Shown: piece after piece, positions 49,352 to 58,340 of the stretch | Layout: each line of letters begins with the position of its first letter | Position numbering within the stretch: position 1 is the stretch's first letter | Source of the DNA: Veillonella seminalis | GTDB lineage: Bacteria > Bacillota > Negativicutes > Veillonellales > Veillonellaceae | DNA: 64,000 nt | Assembly: GCF_003992065.1 (NCBI RefSeq) | Contig: NZ_RQUZ01000001.1 | Span: 62,001-126,000 of the forward strand | Reading direction: 5' to 3' | Program-made: the position numbers and the translations under genes | The notes under the pieces: model-generated | The model's input: only the letters and a program-made list of their open reading frames with translations | Databases searched by the model: none | What the model was told of the DNA's origin: nothing

Positions 49352-49416
49352 TGCTGTTTTACTGTTTTTAGCTTAAGTATTAATACCAAAGGTATTGGAA
49401 GATGGGAGCTGGAAGT

Positions 49417-51225
49417 ATGCATAATCGTCATGGCATCATTGGTAAGTCTGTTATTGAATCGGTTCGTCGTTCGTTACAGAATAAGTATGCTGAGGATTGT
49501 CATATTCAGCAATTGATTGAAGAGCTGGATAGCACGGAAGACTTAACGTATGAAGAACTTCATATTACACGTCAGGCCTATGAAGAAGTGAAAGCGCGCT
49601 TATTCTATACAGCGTTATTGGACAGTTTATGGCAGGAAATCGATGAGACGCAGGATTTGTTGGAACAGCTTCATGTATACGATTCCTTGGAAGATGAATT
49701 TGATACTCAAGGCGAAGAATTAACCAGTGAAGAAATGAATATAGATGAAGTTGATTTGGCGGATGTGGATGTGTCAGATCGACCTGTAGCATTACGCCAA
49801 AGCGGTGCGGTGGCGGCACGCCAGGACGGCACCGTAGTAGCTCGTCGGGACGGTTCGGTAGTGAGCCGTCAAGAGGGGGCTGTGGCTAATCGCCAAGATG
49901 GTTCGGTAGTACTGCGTCAAGAGGGTACATTGGTAGCTGAACCGATGGTGGCTAAAACGCAGGCAGTGGCAGCTGATGCCATTACTGATAGAGATATTCC
50001 GTGGGCGAACTTAACACAGGGCGCCGATGCGGATGATAATTTATTGGCAGGAACAAATGCTGTATTGAATTCGGAGGTGGTAACAGCCAATTCGGCGGCA
50101 ACTGCAGAAGAAGATGATAATGACGATGATACGAATACAGTGTTCCCGGCATCAGAAATCTTTTTGCAAGACATTTTGGATATGTTGAGCCAAAATTTGC
50201 CGGATGGCAAAGAGGGACCGATGACGATTGAAGATTTGATGCTCCATACGGAGTGGAAAGAATTTAAAAAACTTGCTAAACAGGCTAAAAAGTCTATTAA
50301 GAAAGCCCATAAAGCAGCCAAAAAAGAAGCTAAAAAAGTCGCCAAGGAAGCTGAAAAAGCGGCTAAGGCGGCTGAAAAAGAAACCAAAAAAGCATTGAAA
50401 AAAGCGAAACACGCCAAAAAAGGAGTGCAAGAACGCAGCGAAGAATGGTATCAAAATTTGGAAGAGTTGACTGATGATGTAGCAGACACCGCAGCTGACA
50501 AAACAAAAGAGATTTCCAAAGCAGCTGGCAGTGTAGCAACAGCAGTGCAGTCAAAAGTGAATGATGTCAAAGAAAGGGTGGTAGACGAAATGAGCAATCA
50601 AGAAGAACTAACCAATCGTTTGAATCAAGCAACTGATGGCAAAGCTGAAGAAGTTGTTGAAAAAGTTTCTGATAAAGCCGAAGAAGTAGCCGGCAAAGCT
50701 GAAGAGTTGAAAGACCAAGCTGTTGATAAAGCACAAGAATTAAAAGACCAAGCAACTGATAAAGCGGAAGAAATAAAAGATAAAGCATCCGATAAAGTGG
50801 ATGAATTGGCAGACAAAGCCCAAGATTTGAAAGATCAAGTAGCCGATAAAGTTGATGAACTTGCCGATAAAGCCGGTGAGTTAAAAGATCAAGCAGCTGA
50901 TAAAGCTCAGGAATTGAAAGAGCAAGCATCCGACAAAGTGGATGAATTGGCGGATAAAGCCCAGGACTTAAAAGAACAGGCAGCCGATAAAGTTGATGAA
51001 CTTGCCGATAAAGCCGGTGAGTTAAAAGATCAAGATGCTGAAAAGGCTGATGAAGTGGCTGAACGTGCTAAAGAAGTAGCCGGTCAAGTAGCCGATCAAA
51101 TTTCTGAAGTAGCTGATAATGTAAAAGAAGGTGCTCGCGGTGCAGCGATTAAAGTCTTAGATTTCATCGAAGACGCCCTTCAAAAAGCTAAGAGCAATTC
51201 GGATGATAAAAATCCAAAAAAATAA
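49417..51225 (+). CDS. Large repetitive coiled-coil protein (octapeptide plus undecapeptide repeats)
   Basis: A 602-residue protein of no recognised family. Residues 1-85 are helical and acidic. Residues 124-171 are six perfect 8-residue repeats (type R-Q-D-G-S-V-V-x, starting VALRQSGA). Residues about 280-340 are a Lys/Ala-rich helix. Residues about 400-590 are LEA/apolipoprotein-like 11-residue amphipathic repeats (DKVDELADKAQ, DLKDQVADKVD). There is no signal peptide or anchor, so it may be cytoplasmic and membrane- or DNA-associated. Start 49417 (MHNRHG) has GGGAG 8 bases upstream; 49402 is an alternative. The zero frame stops at 51223-51225, immediately after a slippery A7. Confidence 0.8.
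   Translation: MHNRHGIIGKSVIESVRRSLQNKYAEDCHIQQLIEELDSTEDLTYEELHITRQAYEEVKARLFYTALLDSLWQEIDETQDLLEQLHVYDSLEDEFDTQGEELTSEEMNIDEVDLADVDVSDRPVALRQSGAVAARQDGTVVARRDGSVVSRQEGAVANRQDGSVVLRQEGTLVAEPMVAKTQAVAADAITDRDIPWANLTQGADADDNLLAGTNAVLNSEVVTANSAATAEEDDNDDDTNTVFPASEIFLQDILDMLSQNLPDGKEGPMTIEDLMLHTEWKEFKKLAKQAKKSIKKAHKAAKKEAKKVAKEAEKAAKAAEKETKKALKKAKHAKKGVQERSEEWYQNLEELTDDVADTAADKTKEISKAAGSVATAVQSKVNDVKERVVDEMSNQEELTNRLNQATDGKAEEVVEKVSDKAEEVAGKAEELKDQAVDKAQELKDQATDKAEEIKDKASDKVDELADKAQDLKDQVADKVDELADKAGELKDQAADKAQELKEQASDKVDELADKAQDLKEQAADKVDELADKAGELKDQDAEKADEVAERAKEVAGQVADQISEVADNVKEGARGAAIKVLDFIEDALQKAKSNSDDKNPKK
50842..51034. repeat. Internal 52-base direct repeat in the coiled-coil gene
   Basis: A 52-base segment beginning GCCGATAAAGTTGATGAACT at 50842 recurs identically at 50983, an offset of 141 bases (47 codons). 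This indicates recent duplication or gene conversion within the 11-residue repeat block. Copy number here may vary between strains. Confidence 0.75.
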
Positions 51226-51392
51226 AACGCCTTGGTAAGAAATTACCGGATCTGCACGAGACGACCAAGGCGGAAAAGAAAGCCTTGCTGACCGACAGCA
51301 AAGGTCGTTGTCAAGTGTGCGGCAATCATTGCCGACCGGTAAAAGATAAATGCAAAAAACGACAACGAGCATTGGCCAAACTATTACAATAA
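51216..51392 (+). CDS. -1-frame extension of the coiled-coil protein (Cys-rich basic tail)
   Basis: The -1 frame is open from 51210 to TAA at 51390-51392 with no usable start codon. Entered at the A_AAA_AAA heptamer (51216-51222), it adds 56 residues after NPKK: IKRLGKKLPDLHETTK..., then CQVCGNHCRPVKDKC (C-x2-C-x3-C-x6-C, zinc-binding type), then a basic helix KKRQRALAKLLQ. A 9-bp stem (CGCCTTGGT 51228-51236 with ACCAAGGCG 51264-51272) starts 5 bases after the heptamer. The layout fits programmed -1 frameshifting; a plain frameshift mutation or an A-run sequencing error would look the same. Confidence 0.6.
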   Translation, partial: KKIKRLGKKLPDLHETTKAEKKALLTDSKGRCQVCGNHCRPVKDKCKKRQRALAKLLQ

Positions 51393-51425
51393 TATATTGT
51401 GTGAGTTTCCATCGCTAATTAAAAT

Positions 51426-51460
51426 ACCCCCTTACAGCAGTTACTGTAAGGGGGTTATTT
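51426..51460. terminator. Bidirectional terminator between the coiled-coil gene and cidR
   Basis: A 12-bp perfect stem ACCCCCTTACAG / CTGTAAGGGGGT with loop CAGTTA; TTATTT follows on plus and AATTTT-like sequence on minus. It separates convergent genes. Confidence 0.9.
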
Positions 51461-51489
51461 GTGTGTACCATTATTTTTGCCCGACGATT

Positions 51490-52437
51490 TTATTTTTTTG
51501 CATCGCCAAAAATGGTGGGTCCCGGATCCTCACCATGAACTAAACGTTCTTCCACGACATGGGAGCGGAAATAGTTGACCCAGAGTCGAATAGCCGGCAC
51601 AATCATGGACTGTTCGTTCCAAATCATACCGAGTACCCAGTTGATGCGCGGCTCAATCGGAATCGACACTATTTGATCCGGATTCAAACGCTCGCAAATT
51701 GTCTGCGGTAAAATCGCCGTGCCGAGGCCGCTTTTTACGAGTTCCGTAATGAAGTCCCAGTTATTGCTTTGTGCTACGATTTGCGGCACAACGCCGATTT
51801 CCTGGAAACGACCCAGAATAATGTCGTATAACGAAAAGGACGGATGGAAAAATACCAAAGGCTCCTTGCGAATTTCATGGAGCGTAACGGATTCGTAATC
51901 GGCAAACGGTGAATCGGGTTGCATTACATAGTATAGCGGCTGATGGTTAAAAATATAGGTTTGCGTATCCGGATTGGTGAAGTCCGATACCGGTAGCGTG
52001 ACGAAGCCTACCTGTAACTGATTATCCTGAACAAGTTGAGCGATTTGCGGCGAACCATGCTCACTTACTTTCAATGAAATCTGCGGATAAGCGGCCATGA
52101 AATCGCGGATAATCGGTGATAAGAAGGAAGAGCCGATCATCGGCGGGATACCGAGGCTTAATTCGCCCGATTCCGTATCATTCGTGTGGTGCATTTGATG
52201 CTCCAGTACTTCAAATTGCCTCACTAAGGCTTCAATCTGCGGTAATACGGCACAAGCTTCGTTGGTGAGCTCGATGCGATGCCCACGGCGACGGAATAAC
52301 TGCTTGTTCCATTCCCCTTCCAACAGGCGTACCGCTTTACTTAAAGACGGTTGGCTTACATGTAAAGTTTGGGCCGCTTTGGTAAAACTTTTCTGGCGAG
52401 CCACTTCTACAAAGTATTTTAAATGGGTAATATCCAT
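51490..52437 (-). CDS. LysR family regulator, probable CidR-like activator of lrgAB
   Basis: A 315-residue LysR protein. The N-terminal HTH is MDITHLKYFVEVARQKSFTK with VSQPSLSKAVRLLE, and an effector-binding domain follows (about 90-295). It is divergent from the lrgA/lrgB-type genes, the arrangement of CidR (YwbI) with cidAB/ywbHG, where the regulator responds to acetate or pyruvate status. ATG 52437 is chosen because AGGAGG lies 5 bases upstream; the frame extends to 52452. Confidence 0.82.
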   Translation of the reverse strand: MDITHLKYFVEVARQKSFTKAAQTLHVSQPSLSKAVRLLEGEWNKQLFRRRGHRIELTNEACAVLPQIEALVRQFEVLEHQMHHTNDTESGELSLGIPPMIGSSFLSPIIRDFMAAYPQISLKVSEHGSPQIAQLVQDNQLQVGFVTLPVSDFTNPDTQTYIFNHQPLYYVMQPDSPFADYESVTLHEIRKEPLVFFHPSFSLYDIILGRFQEIGVVPQIVAQSNNWDFITELVKSGLGTAILPQTICERLNPDQIVSIPIEPRINWVLGMIWNEQSMIVPAIRLWVNYFRSHVVEERLVHGEDPGPTIFGDAKK

Positions 52438-54948: not shown

Positions 54949-55274
54949 GTTGTTAAAAAGAAATTTACTGAAATTTTATCAATAGATTATCGCAAAAATT
55001 TAATAACTATTGATGCTTTGGTTATAGTTTGAGTTTGCTAAAACTTTATAGATATAATGAAGTGTTATTACCGCGTTTTTTTATACAGTTTCTATAATAT
55101 CAATTTTTATATTAAGTAAAGATATTAACTGAAGTAATGACTATATTGACCCGATATGGTAAAAATGTTAGCATTTAATCATAAGTGAAGCATAGATGAA
55201 TTTAAAAGGGGAATCAATCAAGTTCATCGAGCTGTAAAAGTGTTAGCAGTATAAGGATTTGAGAGGTGTATAGT
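54949..55274. other. Upstream region of the trimeric autotransporter
   Basis: About 325 bases, very AT-rich, without a gene or strong dyad. It must hold the adhesin promoter; I could not single out one -35/-10 pair with confidence. GAGAGG lies 8 bases before the ATG. Confidence 0.5.
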
Positions 55275-58200
55275 ATGGAAACTAAGAAACACGGTTGTCA
55301 TCGAGTAGTTAAGGCTTCTTTGAGTAGTGCAGTCTTATTGAGTTTATTATTAGGCGGACAGGTTTTTGCGGCGGATAATATCATTGTAGACAGTGGTACC
55401 GCTACGGGTACAACAAATACCGTGACTGATGATAAAACAGCTCGTGTCGTGGGGACAGAAAACTCTGTAACCGGCAGTGAAGATGCCAATGTTATTGGCG
55501 ATACCAATACGGTTGAAAACACCAATGGCGTTAATATTGTAGGTAATGATAATAAGATAACAAAGAGCTACCTATGGCAGGGTGGAACAAGATATGAAGC
55601 CAGCGTTGATACTCGTGTTTTTGGTAATAACAATGAAGTACGAGGTAGTCGTAAACAAAACGTTATCGGTGATAATAATAAAATAATCGGTCGAGATGTT
55701 GGCACCGTTACTGACTATGGTCATCCTGAAGGTCGTGAACCTAATATTTCCGACTTAACTATTGGTCGTGGTAATGTACTTACCGGTAATGATACGTATC
55801 GTAATGAATGGGATGCTTTAACGGTTATTGGTAATAACAACGAAATTAGAGGAGTATCTGCAGGTATTATTATTGGTGATAATCAAAAAGGAAACAATAT
55901 TAAGGATTCCGTCATTATCGGTTCTTTATCTCCTGAAGAAAAGAAGATTATCGGCGAAGGTAATAGAAATGTCGTTGTCGTTGGCTATCATACGATAGCA
56001 GGTGATGGTAGTACGGCAGTAGGTCAAAGAACGCAGAATTTGGGGCTAACAAGTACAGCGGTGGGAGTTCGTTCAACTATCAAAGATACAAATATCTATG
56101 GTTCTGTTTACGGTATCGATAATAAACTTAGTTACGAAAGTCAAAGTGAAAATGGGCCTGGGGGCTCGATAGCAACTGGTGCTTATGGGATGCTTAATAA
56201 GGTTGACTCCTCACTGACCTCCATGGCTTTCGGTACAGGAAACCGTATAACAAATGCATATGGTAATGTAAACGAGGGCATTGAAGGCGGGTTCCTTTCA
56301 GGTCGTTGGGGTGAAGTCTATTTCCACACTCCTGATGATTTCGGCTATACCGATCATCTTTCTGAAATAATGGGCGATTTTGCGGCACTTAACGGCGGGT
56401 CCGTATTTGCCATGGGGAACGGCAACGTATCGGATTATGCAAGACGCTCGGCCATCTTTGGGACGGGCAACACTTTAAACGGCACCGAAGCGGCTGTCAG
56501 TGATTATAATCTGGTTACCGGTTATCAAAATAAATCTACCAATGTGAATAACGTGTCTGTTATGGGGACCGGTAATAAGCTGAGTGATGCTACAAGAGAT
56601 GTTGTTATTGGTGATTACCATACTTTAACCGGTGGTAGTAACAATGTTATTTTGGGGACGATGGGAACGAAAGAGGGATATGAAGAACAAACATATACTC
56701 CGCAAAGTTATGACCACACAACCCCTGATAAATATTGGGTAGGAGATACGCTGTACTATGCGGTAAAGGTACAAAAACCGTTACGCGAACATACGGAAAA
56801 TATCAGTAATGCCGTTATGCTCGGCTATAATACGGACGTACAGCATGATGGCGGTGTGGCTATCGGTAGTAATTCCGTAGCATCTGTTGATAAAGGGGCT
56901 TTTGGATATAACCCGGTTAGCGGCAAAGCTTTTGAAAGTGAAGCGGCCATTGTTGCCTATGTCGGTAAGGCGGATAGATTAGCTGAGCTAAATAACAGTA
57001 TCCCTGATTTGGAATCCGCTCTTTCGACAGCTAAAGCTGATTATGAAACTAAGGTTTCTGATTATCTGGCCAAGAATGCTGATTATGTTCAAGCCGTACA
57101 TGAGTATAACCAGATTGACCATGATTCGGATCAAGGTAAAAAAATTAAAGAGCAGATGGATGCCGCTAAGACTGCAAATGATAAAGCGAGAGCCGCTATG
57201 AATACGTCCGAAACAGCTATGAATGATGCCAATAAAGCCTATACGGCAGCTGTATCGGAAAAAACTCAGATTACATCTGCTTGGCAATCCGGTGCGGCGG
57301 CTGTTTCCGTTGGTGATAGTGAAACCAGTTTAACTCGCCAAATTACTAATGTAGCAGCCGGTACCAATGATACTGATGCGGTCAACGTAGCTCAGCTTAA
57401 AGCGGCTGTGGATGCTGTAGGTACAGGCTTACAAGAAAGTACGGATGCTTTGAGTTTTAAAGACAATAAATTAGGTCTGTCAATTAAGAATTCCGATGGA
57501 AAAGAAATCATTTCAGGGAGTGTTAATTTATCTACTATAGCCTCAGCTATCGATACGAGAAATACCATTGCCAATGCCGATGGTGATACTTCCATTATTA
57601 TCGACAGCACAGAAAAGAATAATATTGGCGGAACTAATTACAAAATCAAAGTGAATACTGACGGTAAAGTTGAATCCGGCAATAAAGGCATCGTTACCGG
57701 CGGCACTGTTTACAACGAAACTCGCGTAGCTAAAGACGGCACGTATGTTAAACAGTCTAAATCTGCGGCAGATAACTTGACTGCTTTAGATAGCCAGGTA
57801 GCTGCCAATACAACTCAGATTACTCAGAACACCAATAATATTACTTCTATTTCCAACGAAGTAAGCAATATTACCAATAATGTAACCAGCTTAAACAGTC
57901 AAGTTAATAAATTGGACAATCGCGTTAATCGTGTCGGTGCCGGTGCGGCCGCTTTAGCAGCCTTACATCCGCAAGATTACGATCCGACTGCTAAATGGGA
58001 CTTTGCCGCCGGTTACGGTAACTACAAATCAGCTAATGCCGTAGCTCTCGGTGCGTTCTATCGTCCGACGAATGACTTGCTATTCTCCGTTGGTACTAGC
58101 ATGGGCGGTGGTGAAAACATGTTTAATGCAGGCGTTAGTGTTAAATTCGGTAGCAGTAACGAATATTCGAATTACTCGAAATCTGCCTTAGCCGAAGTTG

Positions 58201-58340
58201 TATCTGAACAGTCTAAGAAATTAGAATCTCAGAATTCAACGATTGAAGAATTACGCACTCAAGTTCAACAACAGGCACAGGAAAACGCCGAATTACGTAC
58301 ACAAGTACAGGAAATCATGCGTCAGTTGGCTAATAAATAA
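55275..58340 (+). CDS. YadA-like trimeric autotransporter adhesin
   Basis: A 1021-residue type Vc autotransporter. The signal peptide (about 1-31) ends in GGQVFAADN. A passenger head of YadA-like left-handed beta-roll repeats (about 35-560; patterns such as NVIGDTNTV, NIVGNDNKI) follows, then a helical stalk (about 570-670) and a YadA neck (AVNVAQLKAAV at about 705). A coiled coil leads to the membrane anchor (about 880-958; RVGAGAAALAAL...GVSVKF). Unusually, 63 more residues follow the barrel, forming a heptad-rich coiled coil. This adhesin shows that the cell has an outer membrane. Confidence 0.93.
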   Translation: METKKHGCHRVVKASLSSAVLLSLLLGGQVFAADNIIVDSGTATGTTNTVTDDKTARVVGTENSVTGSEDANVIGDTNTVENTNGVNIVGNDNKITKSYLWQGGTRYEASVDTRVFGNNNEVRGSRKQNVIGDNNKIIGRDVGTVTDYGHPEGREPNISDLTIGRGNVLTGNDTYRNEWDALTVIGNNNEIRGVSAGIIIGDNQKGNNIKDSVIIGSLSPEEKKIIGEGNRNVVVVGYHTIAGDGSTAVGQRTQNLGLTSTAVGVRSTIKDTNIYGSVYGIDNKLSYESQSENGPGGSIATGAYGMLNKVDSSLTSMAFGTGNRITNAYGNVNEGIEGGFLSGRWGEVYFHTPDDFGYTDHLSEIMGDFAALNGGSVFAMGNGNVSDYARRSAIFGTGNTLNGTEAAVSDYNLVTGYQNKSTNVNNVSVMGTGNKLSDATRDVVIGDYHTLTGGSNNVILGTMGTKEGYEEQTYTPQSYDHTTPDKYWVGDTLYYAVKVQKPLREHTENISNAVMLGYNTDVQHDGGVAIGSNSVASVDKGAFGYNPVSGKAFESEAAIVAYVGKADRLAELNNSIPDLESALSTAKADYETKVSDYLAKNADYVQAVHEYNQIDHDSDQGKKIKEQMDAAKTANDKARAAMNTSETAMNDANKAYTAAVSEKTQITSAWQSGAAAVSVGDSETSLTRQITNVAAGTNDTDAVNVAQLKAAVDAVGTGLQESTDALSFKDNKLGLSIKNSDGKEIISGSVNLSTIASAIDTRNTIANADGDTSIIIDSTEKNNIGGTNYKIKVNTDGKVESGNKGIVTGGTVYNETRVAKDGTYVKQSKSAADNLTALDSQVAANTTQITQNTNNITSISNEVSNITNNVTSLNSQVNKLDNRVNRVGAGAAALAALHPQDYDPTAKWDFAAGYGNYKSANAVALGAFYRPTNDLLFSVGTSMGGGENMFNAGVSVKFGSSNEYSNYSKSALAEVVSEQSKKLESQNSTIEELRTQVQQQAQENAELRTQVQEIMRQLANK

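Follow-up and report, generated by a model that had tools for sequence, protein, structure and literature searches.

Why should a gene end on a run of adenines with its −1 frame open just beyond? The question is raised by a locus of Veillonella seminalis, which lies in a stretch of 64,000 nucleotides (assembly GCF_003992065.1, contig NZ_RQUZ01000001.1, positions 62,001 to 126,000 of the forward strand) that we call the window and whose own numbering we use. Its zero frame encodes a protein whose last two codons complete a slippery heptamer, and the −1 frame continues into a basic tail with four cysteines. Comparison with orthologous loci points to one answer: the gene very probably uses programmed −1 ribosomal frameshifting. 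An initial annotation, made from the letters of the window alone, had suggested as much, and the relatives support it.

Anatomy of the slip site

The elements at the 3′ end of the gene are the following:

49402–51225, + strand: zero-frame open reading frame of 607 amino acids, with a conserved N-terminal helical domain, a variable middle and a repetitive charged C-terminal part, ending in NPKK and the stop.
51216–51222, + strand: slippery heptamer A_AAA_AAA in the zero-frame register (base-by-base reading).
51223–51225, + strand: zero-frame stop TAA, immediately 3′ of the heptamer (base-by-base reading).
51228–51236, + strand: 5′ arm of the downstream stem, CGCCTTGGT (sequence reading, folds, duplex scan).
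51264–51272, + strand: 3′ arm of the downstream stem, ACCAAGGCG (sequence reading, folds, duplex scan).
51222–51392, + strand: −1-frame tail, 56 codons and a stop (open frame; substitutions biased towards the third position).
51309–51353, + strand: Cys motif C-x2-C-x3-C-x6-C (CQVCGNHCRPVKDKC), followed by the basic stretch KKRQRALAK.

The zero frame closes with the codons CCA (51214–51216), AAA (51217–51219), AAA (51220–51222) and TAA (51223–51225). Between heptamer and stem lies the spacer TAAAA (51223–51227), and the two arms of the stem are perfectly complementary over 9 bp. The −1 frame holds 56 sense codons (51222–51389) before its stop (51390–51392) and reads IKRLGKKLPDLHETTKAEKKALLTDSKGRCQVCGNHCRPVKDKCKKRQRALAKLLQ; a shift at the heptamer would yield a product of 663 amino acids. 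All of this, namely the A7 heptamer, its register, the 9-bp stem 5 bases on and the 56-codon frame, had been placed correctly by the initial annotation. Its remark that the tail lacks a start codon of its own holds for ATG and GTG, neither of which a start-codon scan found in the window's −1 frame before the Cys motif, but not for TTG, which occurs once (51285–51287), by eye without a good ribosome-binding site.

Conservation among relatives

Is this arrangement peculiar to one genome? The N-terminal domain of the protein body is present in 21 of 28 family genomes; a search of 61 order genomes returned it in 21 of them (three of 13 genera) and did not find it outside the family. One assembly, G014, which is split into 240 contigs, matched neither body nor tail. 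Our comparison covers 22 orthologous loci, 21 from the family genomes and L078 from V. agrestimuris. Among the labels used, G000 is the window, G002 V. intestinalis, G004 V. ratti ATCC 17746, G005 V. sp. KGMB01456, G006 V. sp. R32, G017 V. denticariosi, G019 V. infantium, G024 V. rogosae, G025 V. sp. T11011-6 and G026 V. parvula SKV38. The window's genus group (g1) has six loci with a tail; the other group (g4) contains the V. parvula group of seven loci.

The 3′ ends of all 22 loci were read, and 19 of them (six in g1, 12 in g4, and L078) carry a tail in the −1 frame, nine of these coming from named Veillonella besides V. agrestimuris. They share one layout, in which the zero frame stops 0–3 codons past an in-register A_AAA_AAR and a four-cysteine tail follows in −1. 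An alignment across relatives had been proposed as the check on recoding, and it finds heptamer, nearby stop, downstream stem and −1 tail kept in these 19 of 22 loci. Such a conserved arrangement looks like deliberate recoding, not sequencing error.

Every one of the 19 loci has A_AAA_AAR in register within the overlap of the 0 and −1 frames. The variant A_AAA_AAA is found in G000, G004 and G005, a tandem pair of A_AAA_AAG in G001, G002 and G006, and A_AAA_AAG in the g4 loci, where G016 has A_AAA_AAA in addition. The stop lies 0, 1 or 3 codons past the last heptamer. Within the V. parvula group it has moved: SKV38 and G022 have TAG directly 3′ of the heptamer, and the other five loci have CAG or CAA in its place and stop three codons past the heptamer. 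Despite this shift, heptamer and stem keep their position in an ungapped alignment of the group. The last 300 bases of the 19 bodies hold only 11 other X_XXY_YYZ heptamers in total, the overlap excluded. Shuffling the codon order of each body gave probabilities of 0.018–0.171 per locus; multiplied over the nine lineage groups, the chance that every one has a heptamer is 2.8e-11. The A-run at the site is 6–7 long in 17 of the 19 loci (eight have 6), with A8 in V. ratti and A9 in G016. The A8 of V. ratti arises by a length-preserving C-to-A substitution, so its tail stays in −1.

Tails of the window's type were found in six of the 28 family genomes at E≤0.01, all of them in g1 (59–100% identity), and in all six loci the zero frame stops at the A-run with the tail in −1. 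The g4-type tail, which is different yet similar (typical pattern GCGKCKRCKGPKCKKYP), is present in 12 of the 61 order genomes, and these are the very g4 genomes whose tail lies in −1. All 18 tail-bearing genomes also carry the body, and no tail without a body was found in the searched genomes save for weak, chance-level matches in a sample of 200 genomes drawn from the class. In that sample the tail search gave 12 matches at E≤0.01, half of them the true g1 loci; among the six others, all weak, the three inspected (L151–L153) look like chance by eye.

The tails extend 31–122 codons past the zero-frame stop. The longest belongs to V. intestinalis, with 122 codons against 55–58 in the other five g1 loci; its locus (L069:5314–5778) has about 60 extra residues between slip site and Cys motif.

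Two distant orthologues bear on the expectation, also stated by the initial annotation, that relatives with both frames fused through A6 or A8 would speak against recoding. None of the relatives is fused in that way, yet G003 (L033) and G020 (L034) could count as fused, for their zero frames end in the Cys-rich sequences CKGCKTKCNPCKKDKK and CVCKKKKDRCTC, respectively. These ends, which differ in the sequence around them, are possible in-frame counterparts of the frameshift product and suggest that the Cys end is of use in itself. G007 has a poly-basic end without cysteines.

Selection on the tail

Pairwise differences were counted by position 1, 2 and 3 of the −1 codon. They amount to 0/2/18 between the window, V. 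ratti and G005. Counted over the Cys end, they are 51/34/174 in the six g1 loci and 100/164/574 in 13 g4 loci. Over the whole tail of the seven V. parvula-group loci the counts are 64/56/147, with 126 synonymous against 115 amino-acid-changing codon differences. The four cysteines are invariant within each clade, including all six g1 loci. These substitution patterns show that purifying selection acts on the Cys part of the tail as a −1-frame protein.

Elements around the heptamer

In each of the 19 loci, bases +3 to +24 were scanned for the strongest duplex that they can form with the sequence that follows (up to 125 bases). Its first base falls at +5 to +8 past the heptamer in every one of them, and published bacterial stimulators generally begin 5–8 nucleotides downstream, according to PMC4066793. 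Across nine groups, each represented by its worst member, Fisher's P is 0.003 for duplex energy alone and 7e-5 for energy and position together, the latter with a position window (+4 to +8) chosen after the positions had been seen. The stem of the window itself reaches z −4.2 in a 50-base fold and z −2.7 in a 70-base fold.

The g1 stem consists of CCTTGGT paired with ACCAAGG plus extensions. Its five distinct sequences have 41 of 45 cells paired, and in two pairs both partners change; pairing in slid controls does not exceed 58%. Among 500 shuffles, 11 match the observed score of pairing and covariation and 99 the count of two-sided changes. The V. parvula group has a stem of 14 bp that closes a loop of about 60 bases, with 98 of 98 main-helix cells paired and an inner hairpin in the loop with 80% of its cells paired. 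No Rfam frameshift family matched at E≤5 in the window (51000–51500) or in L077 (5050–5450), and the weak matches to other families, four and one respectively, are all below their cut-offs.

An upstream element resembling a Shine-Dalgarno (SD) sequence ranks in the strongest 10% of body positions for 10 of the 19 loci; in G001, G002, G006, G016 and G021 its strength is no better than at most body positions. In six of the seven V. parvula-group loci, namely G018 (L038), G019 (L037), G022 (L045), G024 (L041), G025 (L036) and G026 (L044), the SD-like AAGGAT ends 8 bases 5′ of the heptamer; G021 is without it.

Weighing the explanations

Could the same pattern arise without the ribosome changing frame? 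Programmed transcriptional slippage, in which the polymerase miscopies the A-run and mRNAs minus one A (or plus two) encode the fusion, is in our judgement distinctly unlikely. Every site is an A-run, and the mechanism could contribute at the A8 of V. ratti and the A9 of G016. One survey (PMC3711429) links runs of more than seven A to such slippage, naming dnaX runs of 9–10 A, and argues that runs down to seven may suffice. Seventeen of the 19 runs are only 6–7 long, which makes slippage of the polymerase less likely; what is conserved is the A_AAA_AAR register and the place of the stem, not the run length. Slippage in both directions should moreover tolerate +1 tails, and 19 of 19 are −1. We give still less weight to the tail being a separate small gene, with ribosomes re-initiating past the zero-frame stop or with its translation coupled to that of the body. 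An ATG, GTG or TTG precedes the Cys motif in the −1 frame of 12 of the 19 loci: ATG 5 bases past the stop in G017 and G023, GTG at the stop or 5 bases past it in G006 and L078, ATG 32–47 bases past it in G021, G022 and V. parvula, and TTG at a greater distance in the window, V. ratti, G005, G001 and V. intestinalis. However, no start is common to all, the window's sole candidate is the TTG 59 bases past the stop, for which no good ribosome-binding site is seen by eye, and G003 and G020 have the Cys-rich end in the zero frame. Because seven of the 19 loci are without any start before the Cys motif, coupled re-initiation fails as a general explanation and is very improbable.

The two remaining accounts we consider next to impossible. 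The initial annotation had named as the rival an indel or base-calling error in the A-run, which would split a continuous gene in this genome only; homopolymer runs are generally error-prone. This is refuted by the relatives: the same break, in the same direction and place, recurs in 19 loci, five of them in one-contig genomes (G018, G021, G022, G023 and G026, the last being the complete sequence of V. parvula SKV38). Alternatively, the −1 frame might have stayed open fortuitously because the sequence is A-rich, and the tail would be no protein. Lys-rich bodies readily form A-rich heptamers, as the synonymous shuffle below illustrates, and part of the V. parvula-group tail is without codon-position bias. 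The codon-position test of the Cys end contradicts this account, with a strong third-position bias in both clades and four invariant cysteines in each.

Several results weigh against programmed frameshifting itself, among them the long A-runs of V. ratti and G016. Under a synonymous-only shuffle that keeps the Lys-Lys pair, support for the heptamer is weak, at 0.13–0.84 per locus with a product of 0.0084, because the Lys-Lys pair is itself conserved and holds much of the signal. The stem statistics are uneven. Codon shuffling for energy plus position gave modest P values of 0.01–0.21 per locus (weakest in G017, G023 and V. agrestimuris), the duplex ranked anywhere from 5 to 134 among 300 dinucleotide shuffles and from 0 to 131 among 300 synonymous shuffles, the position window was set after the fact, and many loci fold weakly over 70 bases (z up to +0.5). 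Within the stem of the V. parvula group, 10 pairs are invariant and four vary one-sidedly, the covariation check found no two-sided pair change, and the shuffle control was not exceeded. The 60-base linker of the V. parvula group has 5, 5 and 6 variable sites of 20 by codon position and no coding signal; since its sites are evenly spread, the protein signal in this group comes from the rest of the tail, chiefly its Cys end. Between the two clades, the alignment of the Cys tails is only loose, which leaves a single origin unproven.

The supply of lysine tRNAs belongs to the same account. In E. coli, one tRNA reads both Lys codons. A scan of the tRNA loci of the window's own genome found tRNA-Lys(UUU) encoded twice and tRNA-Lys(CUU) once, so the E. 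coli argument is not directly transferable. The tRNA-Lys(CUU) gene has a DNA match in 28 of 28 family genomes, and at the best locus of the 27 other genomes the anticodon is CUU with a single exception, V. ratti, where it is UUU; the other 26 agree. The presence of tRNA-Lys(CUU) could lower slippage on AAG codons. V. ratti (G004, L137) may decode AAG by UUU alone, its best match to the tRNA-Lys(CUU) gene reading UUU.

A proposed mechanism

How, then, would programmed −1 frameshifting work at this gene? Most ribosomes would stop at the TAA at 51223 and release the 607-residue protein. On A_AAA_AAA, the pair of tRNA-Lys in the P and A sites could re-pair one base back, helped by the stem that begins 5 bases on and also, for part of the genus, by the upstream SD-like AAGGA. 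Ribosomes that slipped would read 56 further codons and make the 663-residue form, with its basic tail of four cysteines. The tail may bind a metal ion or nucleic acid, and the minority tailed form might anchor or regulate the otherwise untailed coiled-coil protein. That the shift occurs, its rate, the binding by the tail and the anchoring or regulating role of the minority form are what we infer from the arrangement of the locus.

A further step would be to see the frameshift as a regulated switch, in which synthesis of the tail, or its binding of metal or of the stem in its own mRNA, feeds back on slippage and the Cys-tailed share is set by the state of metal, redox or lysyl-tRNA. We regard this as unlikely; if true, it would be a bacterial frameshift that controls the anchoring of a structural protein.

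Protein, genomic context and origin

Three further features complete the description of the locus:

49417–49716, + strand: conserved N-terminal domain, predicted by AlphaFold2 as a two-helix hairpin (helices 10–38 and 45–98 from the Met at 49417; mean predicted local distance difference test (pLDDT) 86.9, predicted template modelling score 0.69).
50602–51003, + strand: amphipathic repeat region of YtxH/LEA_4/apolipoprotein-like composition (Pfam, NCBIfam).
51426–51455, + strand: terminator-like hairpin, 33 bases past the −1-frame stop and 200 past the zero-frame stop.

The N-terminal hairpin has no Foldseek match in the PDB at E≤0.001. At E≤10 there are 348 matches, and the 50 listed appear to be helical proteins without relation to it. 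Its profile gave three matches among PDB sequences, the best at a not credible E of 0.11, and the domain has no credible Pfam match. In the remainder of the body, YtxH (PF12732) matches residues 416–462 of the window protein at 7e-10, with 39.6 bits against a cut-off of 37.5, in repetitive charged sequence that is also matched by the models Apolipoprotein (1.6e-13) and LEA_4 (6e-9), both below their cut-offs. The NCBIfam heptad repeat TIGR03057 scores 20.7 bits, where the cut-off is 18.6. In the g4 bodies, low-complexity sequence rich in Lys, Asp and Ser makes up the C-terminal half. Body length varies among close relatives, with 607 residues in the window, 647 in G004 and 621 in G005; by eye, the difference consists mainly of amphipathic repeat units gained or lost before the slip site.

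Does the tail resemble a known domain? Neither Pfam (two g1 tails, E≤1) nor NCBIfam (the window tail) returned a family, and Pfam returned none for the V. parvula tail representing g4. The g1 tail profile has a single, not credible match among PDB sequences (E 2.1), and the structure model of the tail, at a mean pLDDT of 64, is of low confidence and too poor for a fold search. The zinc/nucleic-acid-type tail of the initial annotation remains a guess on this evidence. The basic tail with its four cysteines may bind metal or nucleic acid, and the shift would place it on a minority of the molecules.

The genes around the locus were named from their sequence. Upstream of it in the window and in V. 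intestinalis lie dinB-like and larA-like genes; in V. parvula the upstream gene is methyltransferase-like and the downstream one sulfatase/LTA-synthase-like. These neighbours differ between species, and the context therefore gives no function. The terminator-like hairpin forms 12 pairs on the + strand and 13 on the − strand, and with 6 such sites found by the scan against 3.2 expected, a single call is weak by itself. Elsewhere in the window, a large open reading frame (55266–58340), again read from the sequence, has a repetitive passenger and a C-terminal anchor and the look of a trimeric autotransporter adhesin.

In a tree of the N-terminal domain, frameshift loci occur in both deep clades; the g4 proteins share 40–44% N-terminal identity with the window. 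The frameshift may have arisen once, with in-frame or tailless forms derived from it afterwards, or it may have had two origins. The long branches of G003, G020 and G007 leave their place in the tree unsure, which makes the two histories indistinguishable.

Comparison with known systems

The mechanism is known, and the gene family is apparently a new, undescribed case. Among the titles listed for Veillonella and frameshifting, the open-access literature holds no report of this frameshift, and Veillonella goes unmentioned in the main texts of two relevant surveys, one of them the GeneTack study (PMC3711429). An earlier automatic listing in supplementary cluster tables is possible. Insertion sequences account for most of the bacterial genes in which −1 frameshifting is assumed, according to PMC4066793. 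Conserved cases in other bacterial genes are few, and this one spans at least two deep clades of Veillonella. Its natural variants, with a moved stop, a changed stem and a zero-frame Cys end in two orthologues, make it a ready comparative system, and V. parvula SKV38 offers a direct testbed for the benefit of adding the tail to only a fraction of the molecules. The tail is probably lost in automatic annotation, in which case a conserved C-terminal feature would be missing from the database proteins of a genus abundant in the human mouth and gut.

Insertion elements of the IS3 family (IS911 type) combine an A-rich heptamer with a structured stem that stimulates the shift into a second open reading frame; for IS911 this is reportedly a three-way junction. 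The Veillonella loci likewise have an A-rich heptamer, then a stem, and a predicted −1 shift into a second frame. Unlike in these elements, no transposase is seen here and the second frame is a tail of 31–122 codons, not a catalytic domain.

Cellular genes provide further parallels. The GeneTack clusters of Antonov et al. (2013), as presented in the main text (PMC3711429), share the comparative approach and the A-rich heptamers, and include cases in which other species have the fused protein. The copA gene of E. coli is a cellular gene that makes two products from one start via −1 frameshifting, as is proposed for the present one; the report on it (PMC5009743) describes a shift that yields a 70-residue putative copper chaperone, whereas here the shift would lengthen the protein. 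CopA is metal-related, and a metal link is guessed here from the cysteines. E. coli dnaX, in the survey's description (PMC3711429), likewise has an A_AAA_AAG heptamer in a chromosomal gene and a downstream hairpin; its upstream SD-like element has a candidate counterpart in part of the Veillonella loci. The window's own heptamer is A_AAA_AAA, and the two proteins look unrelated, an impression with no direct comparison behind it. The products differ as well: the frameshift product of dnaX is its shorter form, whereas the shift in Veillonella would extend the protein by a Cys-rich tail.

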